A stretch of 37,385 nucleotides of DNA. It comes from a virus. The notes beneath the pieces were generated by a model. The model was given only the letters and a program-made list of their open reading frames with translations. It was not told the origin of the DNA and did not search any database. Below are positions 25,735 to 37,385 of the stretch, one piece after another. The stretch is from the IMG/VR virus record IMGVR_UViG_3300035698_015494, positions 1-37,385 of that record. One strand, written 5' to 3'. A program made the translations under genes and the position numbers. Each line of letters opens with the position of its first letter. Position 1 is the stretch's first letter.

Positions 25735-25874
25735 TACGATCTCCTTGATATACGCAACTCGAAACATAGAAACTCAAACCGGAGGATGAGTCGACCCTTT
25801 GCCCAATGACTATAACTTATTCCAATGCCGAGTACCAGCGTGTCTGTTCTCCACACGTGCGCAGTCCATTTCAT
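25734..25874 (-). CDS. Short gene of 46 codons bridging two genes
   Basis: This short frame fills what would otherwise be a 136-bp gap. It starts MKWTAHVWRTDTLVLGIGIS and ends in RLILRFEFLCFELRISRRS. Its ATG overlaps the glycosyltransferase stop as ATGA, and its TAA overlaps the next gene's ATG as TAATG, so both ends use this genome's coupling style. A 'LILRFE-x-L-x-F-x-x-x-I' strand is common in tiny phage proteins. No Shine-Dalgarno site is visible. Function is unknown. Confidence 0.5.
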   Translation of the reverse strand: MKWTAHVWRTDTLVLGIGISYSHWAKGRLILRFEFLCFELRISRRS

Positions 25875-26692
25875 TTAGGCACCACTAATTTGTTAGGATG
25901 TTTGAAATATGTTTCGTTGAACAGGCGGCGATCAAGATGCTGCTTTTTATTCAACGCCAATCCTTCGCCTCCCCACTTGTCGACCATTTGCGCAAACGCT
26001 GCAAGATTTTGCGACAGTCGCACTCCCTTGTTCACGTTCCCCATTAGCACGCTATCCGCATCCGCTGTGCCTAACACTATATTCCGCAGCTTATACGCAC
26101 CGAACCCGTTGACCGTTAAGTTTAGAGCAAACTCATAATCTTCTGCCATTGTAAACGACTCATCGAAATACAATCCTACTTTTCTGCGCAAAAAGAACAG
26201 AGCAGTACGTGCTTCCGAATACCGTTTGAACACAAGATTTTCCCGGTACTGTTGCGCGTTGTCTGTGTATTCTTTTGTGAATGGTTCCTGCCGGGGATCA
26301 ATCGGATAGAACGCATCAACGTCCTTCATGCGGCTTGAACACTTTTGCAACAGATTAAATACCGACTGTCCGTCCATGTGGTCACGCAAGTAGGAGTCGT
26401 CATCGAGGAACAGGCCCCAGTCGTCTTCCCCCGCATAAAAAGTCTGCAGCAATACATTCCGCGCAGGCCCCGGCAGCAAAATCTTATGGCCGAGCGGGGT
26501 GTGATGATATACGATCCGTTTGTCCTTTACATAGTCGAGTGCCGTATATCCTTGCGCTAAAACGTGGATCACGGATTGCTTAGGGAGATACTTTAACAAC
26601 CACGAAAGCTGCTTGCCGTGCCACTTGAACCGCTTGGCGCGTATTTCCAACGTGCTTCCCGGGTACGAAATAATGTACGCAGACAGGTTCAT
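25871..26692 (-). CDS. GT-A fold glycosyltransferase (phage GT2-like)
   Basis: This encodes 273 residues, ATGA-coupled to the zinc-ribbon gene. It has the GT-A features of a short phage glycosyltransferase: an early GPARNVLLQTFYAGEDDWG, then LFLDDDSYL (D97-D99, the DxD metal motif), and MAEDYEFALNL (about 181-191), the 'ED-x-x' catalytic region of GT2 enzymes. Position between terminase and head genes is unusual, though such enzymes are scattered in phage late regions. It could glycosylate a capsid protein, DNA or a cell-surface glycan; donor and acceptor are not visible. Confidence 0.8.
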   Translation of the reverse strand: MNLSAYIISYPGSTLEIRAKRFKWHGKQLSWLLKYLPKQSVIHVLAQGYTALDYVKDKRIVYHHTPLGHKILLPGPARNVLLQTFYAGEDDWGLFLDDDSYLRDHMDGQSVFNLLQKCSSRMKDVDAFYPIDPRQEPFTKEYTDNAQQYRENLVFKRYSEARTALFFLRRKVGLYFDESFTMAEDYEFALNLTVNGFGAYKLRNIVLGTADADSVLMGNVNKGVRLSQNLAAFAQMVDKWGGEGLALNKKQHLDRRLFNETYFKHPNKLVVPK

Positions 26693-30348: not shown

Positions 30349-30975
30349 CTATTTCGTTTCGGCTACGAACTCAGCGTTGACATGCTTCCTCGTGAGAAAC
30401 AAGAACACCGGAGTGTCGAGAGCAGCAATAGCCAGCTTGACCAAGTACTGCGATAAAATCATCCAGAGAATATTAGGAACGTTGCCGACGAATGCCAGCG
30501 TAATGAACAGGGCCGTGTCGAATAGCTGTGATGTCATGGTCGATAAATTATTCCTCAACCATTTCTTTTTACCACCTGTACGCTTTCCGATCTTATGGAA
30601 AAACCACACGTCCCATGACTGCGACACGTAATACGCAAACATAGACGCCATGACTATTCGGATATTGTTGCCGAGTAGAATGTCGTATGCGTTGGATACT
30701 TCCGTGGCGAAGGGTGCAGCGGGAATGATCTTTGCAATCAAAATCATAAGCGCGGCAACCACTGTGCAAATGAATCCGGTTAGAACCAAATGTCCTGCTT
30801 CCTTCTTTCCGTACAATTCGCTCATGAGATCAGTCATAAGAAAAGTGATGGCGTAAAAAAGAAACGCGCCGGGAAGTATAAGCCCAAAGACTTGTACCAC
30901 TTTCCCCGCCACGACATTGGAAACTATTAACGCCGTAATGAATATCGATACGATAAACATTTTTTTCAGTTTCAT
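30349..30975 (-). CDS. YhhQ-family queuosine precursor transporter
   Basis: This encodes 208 residues from the ATG at 30975 (AAGGAG 9 nt upstream); a start 33 bp earlier is weaker. It is a multi-pass membrane protein with about six helices. Family signatures are clear: ALIVSNVVAGKV, AITFLMTDLMSELYGKKEA, VSQSWDVWFFHKIGKRTGGK and WLRNNLSTMTSQLFDT. YhhQ proteins (PF02592) import the queuosine precursors preQ0 and preQ1. In a phage operon next to T-fold and TGT-like genes this strongly suggests salvage of 7-deazaguanine from the environment or host medium. Substrate specificity is inferred. Confidence 0.9.
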   Translation of the reverse strand: MKLKKMFIVSIFITALIVSNVVAGKVVQVFGLILPGAFLFYAITFLMTDLMSELYGKKEAGHLVLTGFICTVVAALMILIAKIIPAAPFATEVSNAYDILLGNNIRIVMASMFAYYVSQSWDVWFFHKIGKRTGGKKKWLRNNLSTMTSQLFDTALFITLAFVGNVPNILWMILSQYLVKLAIAALDTPVFLFLTRKHVNAEFVAETK

Positions 30976-31012
30976 ATGTGAAAACTCCTTATTGCGCAGA
31001 ACTGGCACTGCG

Positions 31013-31330
31013 TCACAAAACTACTATACAAGATACAGGCGGGTGAGAGAAAGTCGTAGCCTTTACCTCAACGCATAGGCCCGACGGTTCGCATGCGAGT
31101 TTAACCATTTCCATAACAGCTTGGCAAAAAGTCTCGATGATCCACTGCTCACTGTCGGCAAGCTCGACCAACTCCTTGTGTAGATCCGTATAGTCCGGCA
31201 CGCGGGAGACCGGACGCATTTTGATAATCAGCTTCATTTTAAACGGCTGCTGCCCTACACTGCAAAACGCCATGAGCTTGTCCTCATATGTGATTTCGTT
31301 AATCGGGAAAAGTATCGGTATCGTTTTCAT
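31013..31330 (-). CDS. T-fold protein, QueF-like
   Basis: This encodes 105 residues, TAATG-coupled to the ParB-like gene. It aligns by eye with the single-domain QueF/QueF-like group: FCSVGQQPFKMKLII matches the CPVTGQPDFA strand, PDYTDLHKELVELADS the substrate-side helix, WIIETFCQAVMEMV the HE...N helix and VEVKATTFSHPPVSC the final strand. The Cys is retained, but the Asp of the QueF motif has no clear partner. QueF reduces preQ0 to preQ1 and archaeal QueF-like makes archaeosine. The T-fold is also used by FolB, so the reaction is uncertain. Context with YhhQ favours 7-deazaguanine chemistry. Confidence 0.6.
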   Translation of the reverse strand: MKTIPILFPINEITYEDKLMAFCSVGQQPFKMKLIIKMRPVSRVPDYTDLHKELVELADSEQWIIETFCQAVMEMVKLACEPSGLCVEVKATTFSHPPVSCIVVL

Positions 31331-31929
31331 TATTCGTCTCCTATGTTGTATTGCGCTTGTCTCATCCCTTCGCTCAGCACAGGGTCAAAGCCGTTCTTTT
31401 TCAAGAACTTGTTTCCTACTTCGGGATCGGTAGCAACTATCACAATCTTGTACGTGCCGCGCTTTGCCTCAAACGTCACGATCTCATTGCTCTGCCAATC
31501 GTATGCGAGAAGGGCTTGCATATCCTTTAGCTGCTCCTCGGTGTACGGCATTGTCTCCGCGAGTTCTTCTAACGGGAATTGTTTCATTATGCCTTCGACC
31601 AGTTGCGCCAGCTTTATATGGTCAGATTCAAAGCGTGTTTCGTTTGTCTCGATTGCAAGCCGCTCTGCTGCGCGTTGCGTAATCTTCCCCACGTTGTAAC
31701 ACATTGCGGTATCCATTTTGAGATTCCGGAATGCATCCAGCCGGTGATTCCCGTTCACTACCTCATACTTGCCGCGCGCCATTTCGCGGACAATGATATT
31801 CTCCACTTGTCCGTTGCGCTTGATATTACGTTGCAGCACTGCCGTAAGGCGTTCGTCGTCCTGCTTGTAATTCCATTTCGCTTTCACCAGTTCTTTTACT
31901 TTGACATTAAGCCAAGCAGATTGCGCCAT
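31330..31929 (-). CDS. ParB/Sulfiredoxin-domain protein, possible DpdB-like
   Basis: This encodes 199 residues starting MAQSAWLNV, from the ATG at 31929; GGAGG lies 9 nt upstream, and the earlier ATG at 31938 is too close to it. The ParB-like nuclease fold shows as LTAVLQRNIKRNGQVENIIV, then KYEVVNGNHRLDAFRNL (about 55-71), where VVNGNHR is the nucleotide-handling motif. A helical C-terminal part follows (LEELAETMPYTEEQLKDMQA). Stand-alone ParB domains are frequent in phages, but in the bacterial Dpd system DpdB carries this fold and works with DpdA; proximity to a DpdA-like gene makes that role plausible. Confidence 0.75.
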   Translation of the reverse strand: MAQSAWLNVKVKELVKAKWNYKQDDERLTAVLQRNIKRNGQVENIIVREMARGKYEVVNGNHRLDAFRNLKMDTAMCYNVGKITQRAAERLAIETNETRFESDHIKLAQLVEGIMKQFPLEELAETMPYTEEQLKDMQALLAYDWQSNEIVTFEAKRGTYKIVIVATDPEVGNKFLKKNGFDPVLSEGMRQAQYNIGDE

Positions 31930-32236
31930 TTTCCCCATCCTCCAATACTTCGCACGATGTAAGACTAAATAATTCTACCAGCTGCCGCGCCATTGTCTCG
32001 CAGCTTGCATCCGACGCGAACGCTGTCATGCACGTGCAATGCGCTACCATCCCGCTTTTGAAGTCCTGGATTTCTACTTCCCTGCTCTCGCGCTCCACTT
32101 GTTTGCACGCGCGCACATGGAACTCGTGTCGGTGCCGGTTGCGTAGGTAGCTATACCGTTCCGGTGCTTCCGGCCAATTATGAAACGCAACGAATCTAAA
32201 CTTGACTACAACAAACATTTCCATTTCTGTGTTCAT
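31907..32236 (-). CDS. T-fold protein, QueD/PTPS-like
   Basis: This encodes 109 residues from the ATG at 32236, ATGA-coupled to the GT-B gene. It resembles the 6-carboxy/6-pyruvoyl-tetrahydropterin synthase fold: FVAFHNW and RNRHRHEFHV give the three zinc-type histidines (one, then H-x-H), SCETMARQLVELF matches the T-a-E-n-l-A helix, and EVLEDGENGA matches the last strand. The usual catalytic Cys four residues before H-x-H is absent. So it may be a QueD-related enzyme with altered chemistry or a binding protein. Evidence is pattern-level. Confidence 0.5.
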   Translation of the reverse strand: MNTEMEMFVVVKFRFVAFHNWPEAPERYSYLRNRHRHEFHVRACKQVERESREVEIQDFKSGMVAHCTCMTAFASDASCETMARQLVELFSLTSCEVLEDGENGAICLA

Positions 32237-33225
32237 ATCAACTCCACTATGTTGCTCACGTCCGGCGTATATTTTTTCGTCACCGGCATTACTTCTTTGT
32301 TCAAGTACGAGTGTATCAGCTGCACTGCTTCGTCCAGGTCGTTGTATAGCGTAAACGACAGTGTCTCGGGATAGCTCAATCGATTCGGTGCCACCGCATA
32401 ACAGCCGGCGTTCACTCCCTCTTGCATTGCGATACCAAACGTTTCCTGCAACGCAGAGGAAAAGACAACGCGCGAGGTTTTCAACAGGTCGTAATACTGT
32501 GCCTTTGATGTGCACACGTTTTTTGTCGTTACGAAATTGGCAGTGTCGTCAGGGAACCTGCAGACGTACTTCTGTCTCACTAAATCAAAGATTTCTGGTT
32601 GCTTTTCTGGTGCCAGCCGGTGAGGGAAGACAACAGTGCGCGGCCGCATATTGTACGGCGGTAATTCGTTACTGTCGAACGTCACGCAAGGGAAATCCAC
32701 AACAGTAATATTCATCCTGACGGTGTCTAATCCCAATGCTTTCCCTATTAGCAATTTGTGGAAAACAGTTGCGACAAAGACTTCATCCATCGCCATTAGC
32801 CATCCCGCTTCAAAAGACCGCGCCCAGTCCATGCACCCTTGCGCGGTAAGGTGGTCGTGGGGATCCCACGTACCAGCATGCATTATGCCTTTCACTACAA
32901 TGTCGATCCCGGCAACGTCCCGCAAGTAAAACAGCATTTCCATTCCCGGGAACCATGCGTCCATAAAAAACACGGTCCACTTCACGTCGGGTTCTGCTTT
33001 TATCCACCGCATGATATCCGACAGCTGTTGCGATTTGAACACGTTGGTTTCTATCGCATCCAAGAACTCGCCTGTGTGAATCTCGTATGCGTGTTCCATT
33101 ACTTCGCGTCCGGCAATTAAGAAATTGGTAAACGTTTCGTCCAGTGCTGCCAGGAACCATACATACCACTGCGCGCTATATCGTTCCTCTATCGGTTCAA
33201 TCGGTACGAATATCAGTCTTTCCAT
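32233..33225 (-). CDS. GT-B fold glycosyltransferase (GT4-like)
   Basis: This encodes 330 residues from the ATG at 33225 (AGAGG 7 nt upstream). The C-terminal donor domain shows the GT4 pattern: RTVVFPHRLAPEKQPEIFDLV, then SRVVFSSALQETFGIAMQEG with the E-x-F-G-(I/L)-x-x-x-E motif, and AGCYAVAPNRLSYPE. The N-terminal acceptor domain is less typical. It overlaps the DpdA-like gene by 13 bp and the QueD-like gene by ATGA, so it is embedded in the deazaguanine cassette. It may glycosylate a base, a phage protein or a host glycan; which is not known. Confidence 0.8.
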   Translation of the reverse strand: MERLIFVPIEPIEERYSAQWYVWFLAALDETFTNFLIAGREVMEHAYEIHTGEFLDAIETNVFKSQQLSDIMRWIKAEPDVKWTVFFMDAWFPGMEMLFYLRDVAGIDIVVKGIMHAGTWDPHDHLTAQGCMDWARSFEAGWLMAMDEVFVATVFHKLLIGKALGLDTVRMNITVVDFPCVTFDSNELPPYNMRPRTVVFPHRLAPEKQPEIFDLVRQKYVCRFPDDTANFVTTKNVCTSKAQYYDLLKTSRVVFSSALQETFGIAMQEGVNAGCYAVAPNRLSYPETLSFTLYNDLDEAVQLIHSYLNKEVMPVTKKYTPDVSNIVELI

Positions 33226-34097
33226 TTTATTCCTCTCGCTTCCCATAGTTTTGTTAGATACGTTTCCATTTTCAAGTACTCCTGAATCTGATCCTCCCCC
33301 TTTTTATTTTCGATTTTATTTCCTTTCACAGCCCGTCGCATATGGTCAGGTAGTTTCCAGCGCAGCGAGCTTGCCAATTCCTGTTCGGGTGTCATCGTGG
33401 GAGCCACAGCACACGTGATGCTCGTGCCCGTCCACCGGAACACGCGCCCGAATCTATACGATAGTGTCCAGCTGGAACTATCCACAGAGTAAAACGGCAA
33501 ATCGTGTAACATCTTCACGCGCGTGAATGCGAAGCCGTGCACTTTGCACTTCCGCTCGTATGCATACTTAATAAGCTTGCGATACGGGAGCGGTGCACAG
33601 TTCATGCGCAGCCCTTCCAGTGCTACATACTGCGCGGGTGAGGTGTTTACCATGTGCTGGTACTGTTTCCACGTGTCGCCAGTGTGATAAACAAGAATGC
33701 ATTTATCCATTAGCCCTGACGATCTTAGCCGCGCGCGCCATTTCCGGAACACGTCTTTAGGTACCAACTCCTGCAAATCCAGTTCGACAAAATAGTCGTA
33801 GTAGTCATACCATTCTCTCAGCCACAGAATGTATTCGTTGAAATATGTTTCGGGGTCAGGTGCTTCTCCCTCTTTGTCTTGATACGTCGCAACGCCTGTG
33901 AGTCCGTAGAATCCAAAGAAGCTGTGCGCCCCACTGTCAATTGTGATTGTCCCTTTGTGTTTTATCTCTTTGAGGTGTCGCAACGCTTGCTCGGTTATTT
34001 TGCGGTAATGATACGTAAGGAACAGGTCGAGCGTTGCCGGTATATCAAGCCTATAGTTGCGGTACTGCTTTTCGTAAGTGGCGAAGAACAGTTTCAC
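33213..34097 (-). CDS. TGT/DpdA-like transglycosylase
   Basis: This encodes 294 residues from a GTG at 34097. It belongs by pattern to the tRNA-guanine transglycosylase superfamily as found in phages. TITIDSGAHSFF (D54 in DSGA) corresponds to the active-site DSGG loop; FVELDLQEL (104-112) and VHGFAFTRVKML (187-197) are barrel strands; and FYSVDSSSW (D206) matches the second catalytic Asp region. The CxCxxC zinc site of bacterial TGT is not seen. DpdA members insert 7-deazaguanine bases into DNA by swapping out guanine. YhhQ, T-fold and ParB-like genes nearby support that role. tRNA modification remains an alternative. Confidence 0.75.
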   Translation of the reverse strand: MKLFFATYEKQYRNYRLDIPATLDLFLTYHYRKITEQALRHLKEIKHKGTITIDSGAHSFFGFYGLTGVATYQDKEGEAPDPETYFNEYILWLREWYDYYDYFVELDLQELVPKDVFRKWRARLRSSGLMDKCILVYHTGDTWKQYQHMVNTSPAQYVALEGLRMNCAPLPYRKLIKYAYERKCKVHGFAFTRVKMLHDLPFYSVDSSSWTLSYRFGRVFRWTGTSITCAVAPTMTPEQELASSLRWKLPDHMRRAVKGNKIENKKGEDQIQEYLKMETYLTKLWEARGIKWKD

Positions 34098-34119: not shown

Positions 34120-34857
34120 TCATTTCAACGATACACGATCAGGCGTTATTGCCGCGTAGGCTTCATATATCTGCTCGTACGTTTCCGGCATTCCCCCGCA
34201 ATGGTTGCAGATCAATTCGGCCATTGCCATTTCCAAGGGCCAGTCAATGCTTGTCTTAATTGGCGTGGTCAGATACGACAGCAAGTCTTCAACGTCGACG
34301 AACACTGGAGGATACGGGTTTGGGATTCCCCGTACTGTAGATATTACCCATCCGCATTCCGCATAATCGCGTTTGTCTTCCGCGCTTGCGTTGTTATAAG
34401 TGTTCGCTACCCACTGCCAATGCTCCGCGCGCAGCGTCGACGATGCCATGTTGCCGCCCACAGGACAGGCAGGAGGTTTTATTGCCATGGCTACGGTATC
34501 AGGATGCGCCCTCGCCGCGCTCACAATGCGCTGCCCTACCCTTACGTCAAAGAAAGGAGAGTCGCCGCTCAGCGGTAGCATGTGAGTACAGTTTGCAAAT
34601 CGATAGGTGTGCAGCATCCGTTCGTGGACGAGCAGAGGGTGTCCTCTGTAAACCATTGCTCCGTGCTCGTGTCCTATCACCGCAGTGATGTCGTCGGCAG
34701 GGAGCCAAGTCGTCGCGAGTACTACTTCATCAACGCCACACCGTTTTGCTTTGTCGATTATATGCCCGAGCATTGTCTTGCCGCCAAACTTCACTGCTAT
34801 TTTGCCGGGGTACCTGATACTGTCGAACCGTGCGGGAATCGCTGCGCTTACTCTCAT
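34120..34857 (-). CDS. CMP-sugar synthetase-like cytidylyltransferase
   Basis: This encodes 245 residues from the ATG at 34857, which overlaps the upstream stop as ATGA and has AAAGGAG 11 nt upstream; a start 33 bp earlier is weaker. It is a nucleotidyltransferase of the SpsF/NeuA/KdsB group: AAIPARFDSIRYPGK (5-19) is the CTP-binding loop, VDEVVLATT follows, and LPLSGDSPFFD (94-104) carries the metal Asp. These enzymes join CTP to a sugar acid such as KDO or a nonulosonic acid. The sugar cannot be read from sequence. It could supply donors to the glycosyltransferases or DUF115 protein of this phage. Confidence 0.8.
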   Translation of the reverse strand: MRVSAAIPARFDSIRYPGKIAVKFGGKTMLGHIIDKAKRCGVDEVVLATTWLPADDITAVIGHEHGAMVYRGHPLLVHERMLHTYRFANCTHMLPLSGDSPFFDVRVGQRIVSAARAHPDTVAMAIKPPACPVGGNMASSTLRAEHWQWVANTYNNASAEDKRDYAECGWVISTVRGIPNPYPPVFVDVEDLLSYLTTPIKTSIDWPLEMAMAELICNHCGGMPETYEQIYEAYAAITPDRVSLK

Positions 34858-35357
34858 TTTGATTTCTGTCTCCTTTGCCTGTATTTCCAACTGAACAGAT
34901 AGTACTTGATGCGGCTATGCTTCCCTATGTATCCGCACTTCGCAATGCGCCACAACGCCAGTGCCAAATATGCCATTGCTTCGGTCGCAGTGGGTTTCAT
35001 CAGGTTATGAACAACGTTTATTCCTATTCCGTCAAACTGTATAATCGAGAGGACAGGGCAGGCTTTCGCATGCACACGTTCATCGAATGCGCCTTCCATT
35101 GCGAGGTACTTGTGGAAATAGTTTGTTATTCGTGCGTACCGATATTGCGGATCGTTATGGTACCGGTTCCGTTCTGCATCGTTGTCCGAGTACTCCGAGT
35201 CCATGCGCTTATCAAGTGCGACGACAAAATCATGCACGACTTTCTTTCCGTCCAACGTTCCCTGCTCCCTGCCTTCCCGTACTCGCGTCTCGTGATACCA
35301 TGCTTCGTCTACTGCGCACGCACTCAACTCCGCTGCAATTTTTTTATTCTTATTCAT
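34854..35357 (-). CDS. Hypothetical protein
   Basis: This encodes 167 residues; the ATG at 35357 overlaps the previous gene by 8 bp. The N-terminal half is charged and helical (AWYHETRVREGREQGTLDGK), followed by YRYARITNYFHKYLAMEGAF and TATEAMAYLALALWRIA, possibly a buried helix. The C-terminus is very basic (SWKYRQRRQKSK). No known domain is recognised; it could be a nucleic-acid-associated protein. Confidence 0.6.
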   Translation of the reverse strand: MNKNKKIAAELSACAVDEAWYHETRVREGREQGTLDGKKVVHDFVVALDKRMDSEYSDNDAERNRYHNDPQYRYARITNYFHKYLAMEGAFDERVHAKACPVLSIIQFDGIGINVVHNLMKPTATEAMAYLALALWRIAKCGYIGKHSRIKYYLFSWKYRQRRQKSK

Positions 35358-35595
35358 CCATTATCCCCCGTAACCTTTCAATATTGTTTTTTAACGTTGC
35401 CACTTCCTTATCGAGAAAAGCCAGCCGCTCCATCCCTGCGCGTTCGCTTTCCGACAGTGCATCCAGTAATTCACGAAACTGCCGCTGCACGCGCTCACAC
35501 CGGACCGCTACCGCCGTATCGCGTTCGTGCAAACAGAACATCATCATTTCGTGTATTTCATTTCCAAGCCCTCGTGTTGTCTCAAGTACCGTCAT
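35350..35595 (-). CDS. Hypothetical coiled-coil protein
   Basis: This encodes 81 residues from the ATG at 35595, which forms an ATGA overlap with the permease stop and has GGAGG 9 nt upstream; a TTG start slightly earlier is less likely. It is helical throughout, with RQFRELLDALSESERAGMER and DKEVATLKNNIERL giving a probable coiled coil. The N-terminal MTVLETTRG and a Met-rich EIHEMMMF are notable. No family is recognised. Confidence 0.6.
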   Translation of the reverse strand: MTVLETTRGLGNEIHEMMMFCLHERDTAVAVRCERVQRQFRELLDALSESERAGMERLAFLDKEVATLKNNIERLRGIMDE

Positions 35596-36491
35596 TCCTT
35601 TAACCCTCCACTCCAAAGACCTTTGACTAAAAATCTGTGTCCTACAGTAAATACAACTACCATCGGCAGGAGCATGAAAGTACTCCCGGCAAGCGTCAAT
35701 CCGTAATTGTTTTCAAACCATTCGCGCATTTTGTTTTGTGCATCGTCGTAGATGATTTGTTGTATCCCGAGCGGCAGCGTGAACTTTTCTTCACTGAACA
35801 GTATGAACAACGGCCATTGGAAATTGTTCCACTGCCCCATGAATGTCATTATTACCATCGTGATTATTGCCGGTGAGGATAATGGCAGCACGATACGGAA
35901 GAACTTCGTGAGTTCTCCCGCGCCGTCGATCTCGGCAATGAGCAAATACTCATCCGGCAACTTGTCGACAAACTGTCTGTAGAAAAACAAGAACGTCATA
36001 TTCAACATGCCGGGAAGTATTATCCCCCACGCCGTATCAATCAGGCCGAAGTTTTTAATCACAACGAACAGCGGTATCAACGTCGCCGTGCCGGGAATCA
36101 TCAACGACGCCATAAGCGTCCAGAAGATTATTTCCTTTCCCGGTATCGGTTTTTTTGCAATGCCGTATCCTGCCATTGCCGTTATGAGCGCAACGATAAC
36201 GCAGCTTGTAATCGCAATCACCGCACTGTTGCGCGTCCATCGTAATATCGGGTAATAAAACAACGATCTGAAATTCGCCAACGTATACTCAGTCGGAATA
36301 AGTTTGGGCGGCATCATGTTCAACCCTTGATCAGTGCGCACACTGCCAAGCACCATCCAAATCATCGGCATGAGAAGCAGCGCAGCGAATACGACAACGA
36401 GAATGTAGGCAATCATTTTCACGAAACGGTTTCCTTGCACGCCACGCACGTTTCCCCGTTCATCATGATTTGTCCCTTCCCATTGCTGCAT
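35592..36491 (-). CDS. ABC transporter permease, carbohydrate type (MalG/UgpE-like)
   Basis: This encodes 299 residues from an ATG at 36491 (GGAG 6 nt upstream); an ATG 30 bp earlier is possible. It is a binding-protein-dependent permease of the MalG class. Six membrane segments are visible, starting with IAYILVVVFAALLLMPMIWM. The loop DEYLLIAEIDGAGELTKFFR continuing to IVLPL is the EAA motif (E-x-A-x-x-D-G-A, then the conserved I-x-L-P) that docks on the ATPase. Later VIMTFMGQWNNFQWPLFIL and a C-terminal TVGHRFLVKGLWSGGLK are family features. It pairs with the MalF-like gene upstream. No ATPase or binding-protein gene is in the window. Confidence 0.9.
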   Translation of the reverse strand: MQQWEGTNHDERGNVRGVQGNRFVKMIAYILVVVFAALLLMPMIWMVLGSVRTDQGLNMMPPKLIPTEYTLANFRSLFYYPILRWTRNSAVIAITSCVIVALITAMAGYGIAKKPIPGKEIIFWTLMASLMIPGTATLIPLFVVIKNFGLIDTAWGIILPGMLNMTFLFFYRQFVDKLPDEYLLIAEIDGAGELTKFFRIVLPLSSPAIITMVIMTFMGQWNNFQWPLFILFSEEKFTLPLGIQQIIYDDAQNKMREWFENNYGLTLAGSTFMLLPMVVVFTVGHRFLVKGLWSGGLKE

Positions 36492-36786
36492 CCATTTCTC
36501 CGTCCAGTTCGTGCCTAACATGCGCAGCTTCGCGGAGTTCGGGGTGCGCTTTTAGGTAGGTACTCTTTCTCTGTCTTTTGCCGTACCGCTCCCTTGCTTG
36601 ATAGTTTTCAAGGTTCTCGGTAAAGATTCGTTCGGCCCAATCCATTAGCGTTCCCCCTCCGTCGAATGCGCTTTGAGGCATCCATACTTGTTCTCCGTTT
36701 TCTGTCTCGAGGAAAAACGCTCGCTCTGTTTCTCGAATGACTTTTAATTCTGTTTCATGATCGCCATTGTCCGATATCCCTATCAT
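36463..36786 (-). CDS. Small hypothetical protein between two ABC permease genes
   Basis: This encodes 107 residues, ATGA-coupled to the MalF-like gene with GGAGG 8 nt upstream. The N-terminal half looks like a small beta domain (ETELKVIRETERAFFLETEN, then GEQVWMPQSAF), a pattern common in phage accessory proteins where 'v-W-l-P-k-S' follows a strand pair. The C-terminal half is charged and helical. It has no transport features, so an apparent phage-type gene interrupts the transporter genes. Function is unknown. Confidence 0.65.
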   Translation of the reverse strand: MIGISDNGDHETELKVIRETERAFFLETENGEQVWMPQSAFDGGGTLMDWAERIFTENLENYQARERYGKRQRKSTYLKAHPELREAAHVRHELDGEMDAAMGRDKS

Positions 36787-37385
36787 TTAAAAATCCTCCG
36801 TTGAATTAATGACAGTGTTAAGGTAACGACCAGCAAAAAGATCCCGATTGCCGCCGCGTATCCCCACCGTCCGAATATTATTGCGTTCTCGTACATTTGC
36901 AGCGCAAGCGTTGTCGTTCCGTGATTCGGCCCGCCCCCGGCCATCACATACGGATATACCCACGTCTGCAAATACGCAATCGTTCTGATAATCGTAATGA
37001 ACATTATCATCGGTACCACTAACGGTATCGATACGAACCGGATCTCTTGCCATACTGTGCAGCCGTCTACCGTCGCTGCGTCATATAGTTCTTTGTCGAT
37101 TGCCAGCAACCGTGCCATGTAAAATAGTATCGCCGCCCCGGCGCCGGAAAAGAGCAGCATGATTTCCACTGCCCATATTGCAGACGGGTTTTGCCCAAAC
37201 CACGGTATCTGCTTTCCGATAATCCAGTTGAGTATTCCCTCTGTCGGATGAAATATCCATTTCCACACTGCTGCGATTATGACTCCCGCTGTTAGTTCGG
37301 GAAGGTAAAACGCAAACTGCACATAGTACCGGAAGCCCCTGCCGGTACTCACGGCAAGGATACTAACGAACAACGGCACCAGTGC
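36783..37385 (-). CDS. ABC transporter permease, carbohydrate type (MalF/UgpA-like), 5' end outside window
   Basis: The frame stays open to the right edge, so the true start lies outside; about 200 residues are visible. It has at least four membrane segments. The EAA loop is DKELYDAATVDGCTVWQEIR continuing to FVSIPLV (the motif's D-G and I-x-x-P), the ATPase docking site of the MalF class. Other family features are FAFYLPELTAGVIIAAVWKW, WVYPYVMAGGGPNHGTTTLA and a final TLSLIQRRIF. It should form a heterodimeric channel with the MalG-like protein encoded at 35592-36491. The substrate is a sugar or glycerol-phosphate type compound by family, not proven. Confidence 0.9.
   Translation of the reverse strand, partial: ALVPLFVSILAVSTGRGFRYYVQFAFYLPELTAGVIIAAVWKWIFHPTEGILNWIIGKQIPWFGQNPSAIWAVEIMLLFSGAGAAILFYMARLLAIDKELYDAATVDGCTVWQEIRFVSIPLVVPMIMFITIIRTIAYLQTWVYPYVMAGGGPNHGTTTLALQMYENAIIFGRWGYAAAIGIFLLVVTLTLSLIQRRIFK

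Follow-up and report, generated by a model that had tools for sequence, protein, structure and literature searches.

A viral gene cassette best read as the import-fed branch of a probably glycosylated 7-deazaguanine modification system

The window, a linear viral fragment of 37 kb (37,385 nucleotides) to which alone the gene absences reported for it refer, contains seven coupled genes, best read as the importing branch of a probably glycosylated system that lacks QueC, in which a YhhQ transporter and a small QueF-Like T-fold protein (QFL) replace de novo precursor synthesis. It is fairly probable that these genes form a phage DNA-hypermodification cassette fed by an imported 7-deazaguanine base and following the full route, including the addition of a sugar by a glycosyltransferase (GT). 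The genes are identifiable and tightly coupled, and the GT is conserved with QueD2 (a paralogue of QueD) and DpdA. Across related loci, GT and QueD2 make up a widespread phage module, QueD2 excludes QueC, and FolE, QueD and QueE are replaced by YhhQ, usually together with QFL.

The seven genes lie on the minus strand and overlap or abut each other; starting at the cytidylyltransferase gene and ending at yhhQ, the gaps are +22, -13, -4, -32, -1 and +4. These gaps confirm what a sequence-only reading had described as one tightly coupled run encoding YhhQ, a QueF-like, a QueD-like, a ParB-domain and a DpdA-like protein; that reading omitted the GT gene (32233-33225) within the run and the cytidylyltransferase gene (34120-34890). 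The transporter (30349-30975) is indeed of the YhhQ type: it matches PF02592 (E=1e-48) and the queuosine precursor transporter family TIGR00697 (E=3e-43, 147.8 bits for a curated cut-off of 50.95). Its reading frame is open from 31008, and the ATG at 30975 is preceded by the Shine-Dalgarno sequence AAGGAG. The characterised substrate of YhhQ, established for the E. coli protein, is preQ0 (cited in PMC6884629).

The gene at 33213-34097, which has a GTG start, encodes a DpdA-type DNA guanine transglycosylase of 294 amino acids. The TGT/DpdA-like similarity proposed for it was found, both with phrog_887 (E=3e-24) and with the DpdA of phage 9g (hhalign 99.4%, E=1e-21). Residues D54 (in DSGA) and D206 (in VDS) are invariant across 16 relatives, and we take this pair to be equivalent to the catalytic Asp pair of TGT. 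A scan of IMG/VR with the single DpdA sequence returned no relatives, and a profile search of the PDB gave no useful match. The ParB-N domain protein (31330-31938), also recognised from the sequence, matches PF02195 (ParB_N, E=5e-6) and phrog_723 (E=2e-20). Its gene neighbours dpdA in the window, and L004, L006-L011 and L013-L015 also have ParB at the module. ParB is a usual neighbour of DpdA among the loci seen.

QFL (31013-31330, 105 amino acids) could be recognised through its homologues. Taken alone, the single sequence has no match in Pfam, NCBIfam or PHROGs, its resemblance to the QueF of Dp-1 received no support in a shuffle test, and its AlphaFold model, built without an alignment, has a pLDDT of 37. 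Homologues occur in L119, L121, L128 and L144, each adjoining yhhQ, and a profile built with them matches the archaeosine synthase QueF-Like (PDB 5jyx, E=1e-7), with FolE T-folds as the second-ranked matches; it is through this profile that the suggestion of a QueF-like T-fold protein is borne out. Cys23 and Glu66 are conserved, and the thioimide Cys aligns with that of 5jyx. In QueF and QueF-L, this conserved Cys makes a thioimide with preQ0 (PMC5485725). The general acid/base Asp of the two enzymes, seven residues after the Cys, is absent (F, C, F, C and Y in five QFL members). QFL is therefore filed neither as a preQ0 reductase nor as an archaeosine synthase, and its activity may differ.

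For the QueD-like gene, a mechanical ORF of 202 amino acids was replaced by the real one (31907-32236, 109 amino acids). The structure model of this protein, QueD2, has a pLDDT of 92.8, and Foldseek ranks E. coli QueD (4ntk, TM 0.76) first among its PDB matches; hhalign against QueD gives E=2e-9. The Zn triad H19, H35 and H37 is invariant, as is E99. The expectation of a QueD-like T-fold thus holds for the fold and the Zn triad. The protein is no CPH4 synthase: all 22 QueD2 members have Leu where QueD has its catalytic Cys, four residues ahead of the HxH motif. QueD2 is accordingly classed as a paralogue with the QueD fold and not as QueD itself. DpdL is reportedly a CDG decarboxylase, a result attributed to Cui et al. 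in 2023; if QueD2 were a CDG decarboxylase too, its product would be without an obvious group for a glycosyltransferase.

The absence of queC, queE and folE, first remarked for the run itself, extends to the entire 37-kb fragment: a Pfam search detected no FolE or QueC, and family profiles detected no FolE, QueE or canonical QueD in its six frames. Among 100 QueD2 clusters, FolE, QueD and/or QueE are present in 81 of the 93 that have no YhhQ, versus none of the seven that have it (p=3e-6, or p=9e-5 when the two ascertained cases, the window and L144, are left out). QFL is found in five of these seven YhhQ-containing clusters and in no other locus examined. FolE was found neither in the whole records of L119, L121, L128, L134 and L144 nor in the complete genome of Faecalibacterium phage Roos. 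No QueC above cut-off was detected among the QueD2-containing records searched whole, and QueD2 occurs in none of 13 QueC-containing records. Lacking QueC, the relatives with de novo synthesis appear to go no further than CDG. The set GT, QueD2, DpdA, QFL and YhhQ recurs in L121 and L144, where it equals that of the window minus ParB, and the window is thus not the sole combination of GT and YhhQ, as had been considered.

The exclusion between YhhQ and FolE/QueD/QueE, together with the Roos genome, strengthens the idea of import, tailoring by T-fold proteins and insertion by DpdA. This core of the sequence-only reading is the best-supported one, with three amendments: the QueD-like protein is no CPH4 synthase, the GT had been missed, and an earlier study had described phages having DpdA and YhhQ but no preQ0 genes and had proposed uptake (Hutinet 2019, PMC6884629).

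The reading frame of the GT gene is open from 33246, and the profile-supported start is the ATG at 33225. The protein is of the GT4 type (GT-B): PF00534 is matched by 18 of 25 family members (best 8e-12), and the GT4 signature motifs R210/K215 and E268..E276 (EX7E) are conserved. It has 30 relatives in IMG/VR, most of them adjoining DpdA, QueD2 and ParB. The same family is present in 69 of the 100 QueD2 clusters, often with its gene adjoining or overlapping that of QueD2 or DpdA. The phages concerned are unrelated and differ greatly in genome size (up to 469 kb). Only five loci were seen to have it and lack QueD2, several of these being incomplete. It is also found in the 7-deazaguanine cassettes of ACP17, PAC2, Phosso, BUCT-ZZ01 and X1. 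Its presence in the cassette makes a glycosylated base likely, and the gene association points to a DNA base as the putative acceptor. No GT was found in the loci of phiST and Roos, and it is therefore not obligatory.

The cytidylyltransferase (KdsB/SpsF-like; PF02348, E=7e-14) probably belongs to the cassette as well. A homologue lies at the same place in the sister contig L041, beside ParB-DpdA-YhhQ-terS-terL; a scan of IMG/VR with the single sequence returned no relatives. The enzyme may be linked to the sugar of the GT, but L041 has it without a GT, and CMP-sugars rarely serve as GT4 donors.

In the route that we infer from these genes, from the imported substrate and the order of the steps to the product of QFL, the sugar, the acceptor position, the chemistry and the DNA target, YhhQ would import preQ0 (or a relative) from the surroundings of the cell, and Cys23 of QFL would attack the preQ0 nitrile to give the form needed by the pathway. 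QueD2, a Zn T-fold protein without the Cys of CPH4 synthase, may then process the base at the stage that belongs to QueC elsewhere among phages; DpdA and its ParB partner would swap the processed base for guanine in phage DNA, and the GT would add a sugar after insertion. The likely benefit of the modified DNA would be protection from restriction enzymes. A more specific version, a reasonable possibility short of probable, is a salvage-fed branch in which YhhQ and an altered QueF-Like enzyme (Cys kept, Asp lost) replace three enzymes and the GT finishes the base; this enzyme perhaps returns preQ0 towards the level of the carboxylate by hydrolysing its nitrile.

The matching of substrates counts against this model, since preQ0 is the molecule for which E. 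coli YhhQ is known and the de novo relatives appear to end at CDG. The imported molecule could accordingly be CDG or another acid-level base, with another role for QFL, as the loss of the catalytic Asp would allow; YhhQ is also paired with the CDG-consuming QueC in L046, L048, L049 and L050, loci that have no FolE or QueE (nor is FolE in the records of L046 and L050). We consider CDG import somewhat improbable, given the characterised substrate of YhhQ and the retention, in a protein present only in YhhQ-containing loci, of the Cys that attacks the nitrile. It is decidedly unlikely that de novo genes lie beyond the sequenced fragment and that YhhQ merely supplements synthesis, with no dependence on import. 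The window is indeed incomplete, and one YhhQ phage (L040) also has FolE, QueD, QueE and QueC, but in QueD2 phages FolE, QueD and QueE are usually within a few kb of QueD2, and both the 0/7 count and the FolE-free records, Roos included, go against this explanation.

The GT and the cytidylyltransferase might also act on host-surface or virion glycans and be in the cassette by chance: surface-modifying sugar genes are common in phages, and in L041, a 12-kb fragment, the cytidylyltransferase has no adjoining glycosyltransferase. The recurrence of one GT family with QueD2 in unrelated phages, and its rarity elsewhere, make this unlikely. That the cassette modifies tRNA or boosts host queuosine instead of acting on phage DNA is very improbable, even if the PHROG label of the DpdA family is queuine tRNA-ribosyltransferase and the catalysis is common to TGT and DpdA. 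Indeed, the window has no match to Pfam TGT whereas all 14 control genomes do, the partner is a ParB, a usual neighbour of DpdA in the loci seen, and the closest characterised relative compared, the DpdA of 9g, was shown to modify DNA (PMC6884629).

In phages 9g, CAjan, Rosebush and nt-1, DpdA likewise puts a 7-deazaguanine into phage DNA (PMC6884629). The phages of that study make preQ0 with FolE-QueD-QueE-QueC or have DpdA alone, unlike the window; YhhQ is present in some, and for those with only DpdA uptake was proposed. QueD2 was not found in 9g, CAjan, nt-1 or Dp-1. Cellulophaga phage phiST and Chryseobacterium phage MA9V-3 resemble the window in having QueD2 and a DpdA-like protein without QueC, but they make the precursor via FolE/QueD/QueE, and YhhQ, QFL and the GT were not found at the loci examined. 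Roos (PP479939), a complete cultured genome without de novo genes, shares ParB-QueD2-DpdA-YhhQ with the window; it differs in that GT and QFL were not found, and its genes are annotated as hypothetical. The archaeosine synthase QueF-Like (5jyx/5k0p; PMC5485725) shares with QFL the single-domain T-fold and the thioimide-forming Cys, but in the five phage proteins F, C or Y takes the place of its conserved Asp, and it serves archaeal tRNA modification whereas QFL accompanies YhhQ and DpdA in phages. No description of the GT module or of the YhhQ/QueF-Like swap was found in the literature examined.

If the preferred reading is true, sugar-bearing 7-deazaguanines would join the known phage DNA hypermodifications, through a module that several cultured phages (ACP17, PA5oct-type phages, Xanthomonas X1) share with dozens of viral loci. 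With YhhQ and QFL in place of FolE/QueD/QueE, both the cargo of phage YhhQ and the dependence of phages on micronutrient bases from the environment would become testable. A functional context would also emerge for QueD2 and for the family of small QueF-Like proteins, including the question of whether QueD2 takes the substrate of QueC.

The window, a linear virus record from IMG/VR, spans 37,385 bases and includes genes for terminase, portal, head protease and tape measure. Its minus strand carries, in order, a cytidylyltransferase, the DNA guanine transglycosylase DpdA (33213-34097), a GT4-type glycosyltransferase (GT, 32233-33225), the QueD-fold paralogue QueD2, ParB, a small QueF-Like protein (QFL, 31013-31330) and the transporter YhhQ (30349-30975), then the terminase genes. 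The sequence-only reading described a tightly coupled run, and rightly so, since the successive gaps from cytidylyltransferase to YhhQ are +22, -13, -4, -32, -1 and +4 bases. Its gene list omitted the GT, which is located between dpdA and the QueD-like gene; the latter actually extends over 31907-32236 and its ATG overlaps the GT stop. Two ABC sugar-transporter permeases (MalF/MalG- or UgpA/UgpE-like; 35592-36521 and 36783-37385, minus strand), separated by a small ORF (36463-36786), lie just upstream of the cassette; for the second permease, a scan turned up no closely related viral protein. They could supply sugar or be host-derived. A 273-aa protein among the structural genes (25871-26692, minus strand) looks glycosyltransferase-like by eye, with no family match.

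The gene identities, like the associations described below, are shown by the analysis. YhhQ matches PF02592 (E=1e-48) and, above cut-off, TIGR00697 (E=3e-43), and ParB matches PF02195. DpdA has no Pfam TGT match; it matches phrog_887 (E=3e-24), as do 16/16 aligned relatives, and aligns with phage 9g DpdA (hhalign 99.4%, E=1e-21). The GT matches weakly as a single sequence, while 18 of 25 family members match PF00534; the family conserves R210/K215 and E268...E276, the usual GT4 donor motifs. The predicted structure of QueD2 (pLDDT 92.8) has E. coli QueD as its best PDB match. The zinc histidines never vary, nor does the Glu that anchors the base, but Leu occupies the place of the catalytic Cys in 22/22 sequences.

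The GT-QueD2 module is widespread. An IMG/VR search with the GT gave 30 loci, many of which unite DpdA, GT, QueD2 and ParB with FolE, true QueD and QueE. The same pair occurs in 7-deazaguanine cassettes of the cultured phages ACP17, vB_Pa-PAC2 (a PA5oct relative), Phosso, BUCT-ZZ01 and Xanthomonas X1. Scanning with a QueD2 profile confirmed more than 460 relatives; the loci of the best 80 were fetched, and clustering the QueD2 set at 80% identity gave 100 clusters, with GT in 69 and DpdA in 69. QueD2 domains also occur in ORFs of about 300 aa (L055:8452-9333, L063:8977-9933, L064:8917-9885), and a BFVD match is annotated as an AAA domain protein; this suggests a fusion to a kinase-like domain, and some phages may use a route at the nucleotide level. 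The GT-less cassettes of loci L119, L128, L134 and L054 pair QueD2 with another, highly divergent DpdA/TGT-like family of about 270 aa, whose hhalign match to the family in the window is negligible. Contig L052 (JAKOQC010000017.1), from a bacterial genome bin, has QueE-GT-QueD2-DpdA and is probably a prophage or a binned phage.

QueC and QueD2 were never found together. QueC is present at 0/100 QueD2 clusters and above cut-off in none of the QueD2-positive records searched whole, and QueD2 is present in 0/13 QueC-positive records, including 9g, CAjan, nt-1 and Dp-1. QueD2 therefore probably acts at the branch point of QueC, on CDG or its successor. Cellulophaga phage phiST carries QueD2, and Cui et al. 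(2023) reportedly named a CDG decarboxylase of Cellulophaga phages DpdL; QueD2 may be DpdL.

YhhQ is present in seven of the QueD2 clusters, namely the window, L119, L121, L128, L134, L144 and phage Roos. None of the seven has FolE, QueD or QueE, against at least one of these in 81 of the 93 YhhQ-free clusters (Fisher p=3e-6; p=9e-5 without the window, the index case, and L144, found via QFL). This comparison includes many fragmentary records and clusters that are not fully independent, and its scans for QueD and QueE covered loci of at most 18 kb, plus the whole records of the window and Roos. In all seven, FolE is missing over the entire record, which bears out for the window the earlier remark that no folE was in view. 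It is thus likely that YhhQ substitutes for synthesis. Loci L046, L048, L049 and L050 have DpdA-QueC-YhhQ cassettes, and FolE, QueD and QueE were not found at these loci; because YhhQ is paired there with a CDG-consuming enzyme, CDG is a possible cargo of phage YhhQ.

Sister contig L041, which shares its terminase with the window (549 bits), has at the same site cytidylyltransferase-ParB-DpdA-DUF-YhhQ, but neither GT nor QueD2, and Fusobacterium phage phiFN37 has ParB-DpdA-hypothetical-YhhQ. Thus, the window looks like a plain import cassette that received a GT-QueD2-DpdA-ParB module by exchange. A small conserved protein directly follows DpdA in plain import cassettes (L041:4551-4955, which is phrog_5935; L001:9805-10236; L046:5773-6228) and is not found in the window.

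QFL matched nothing as a single sequence. A scan of the fetched loci revealed homologues directly upstream of yhhQ in L119, L121 and L128, and an additional scan another after yhhQ in L144; QFL thus occurs in five of the seven YhhQ-positive clusters and in no other locus examined. The four-sequence profile matches the archaeosine synthase QueF-Like (PDB 5jyx, E=1e-7; E=4e-7 with five sequences), which upholds the homology proposed from sequence, and the thioimide-forming Cys is aligned. QueF and QueF-L share a conserved aspartic acid general acid/base (PMC5485725), but this site, seven residues after the Cys, is F, C, F, C and Y in the five phage proteins. QFL is therefore a QueF-Like homologue whose chemistry is probably altered.

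The association of phage DpdA with YhhQ is already published, with uptake as a suggestion (PMC6884629). In a literature search whose scope left out most subscription journals and Cui 2023, we found no paper linking a glycosyltransferase to phage 7-deazaguanine and no description of the YhhQ/QueF-Like swap.

We infer the substrates, the order of the steps, the sugar and the DNA target as follows. YhhQ would import the precursor, QFL would carry out nitrile chemistry, with an even chance that its substrate is preQ0, and QueD2 would perform a zinc T-fold step. DpdA, with ParB, would exchange the base, very probably in DNA, and the GT would then glycosylate, with the base itself as its somewhat more likely than not target. 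If QueD2 solely removed the carboxylate, the GT would have no obvious acceptor on C7. The run in the window contains no radical-SAM gene. Loci L004, L005, L006, L011, L017 and L021 have extra ones, with proteins inside GT-QueD2 cassettes at L004:6245-7174, L006:6484-7989 and L021:6628-8004; in these phages, the additional enzymes may add an acceptor and possibly tailor C7 before glycosylation.
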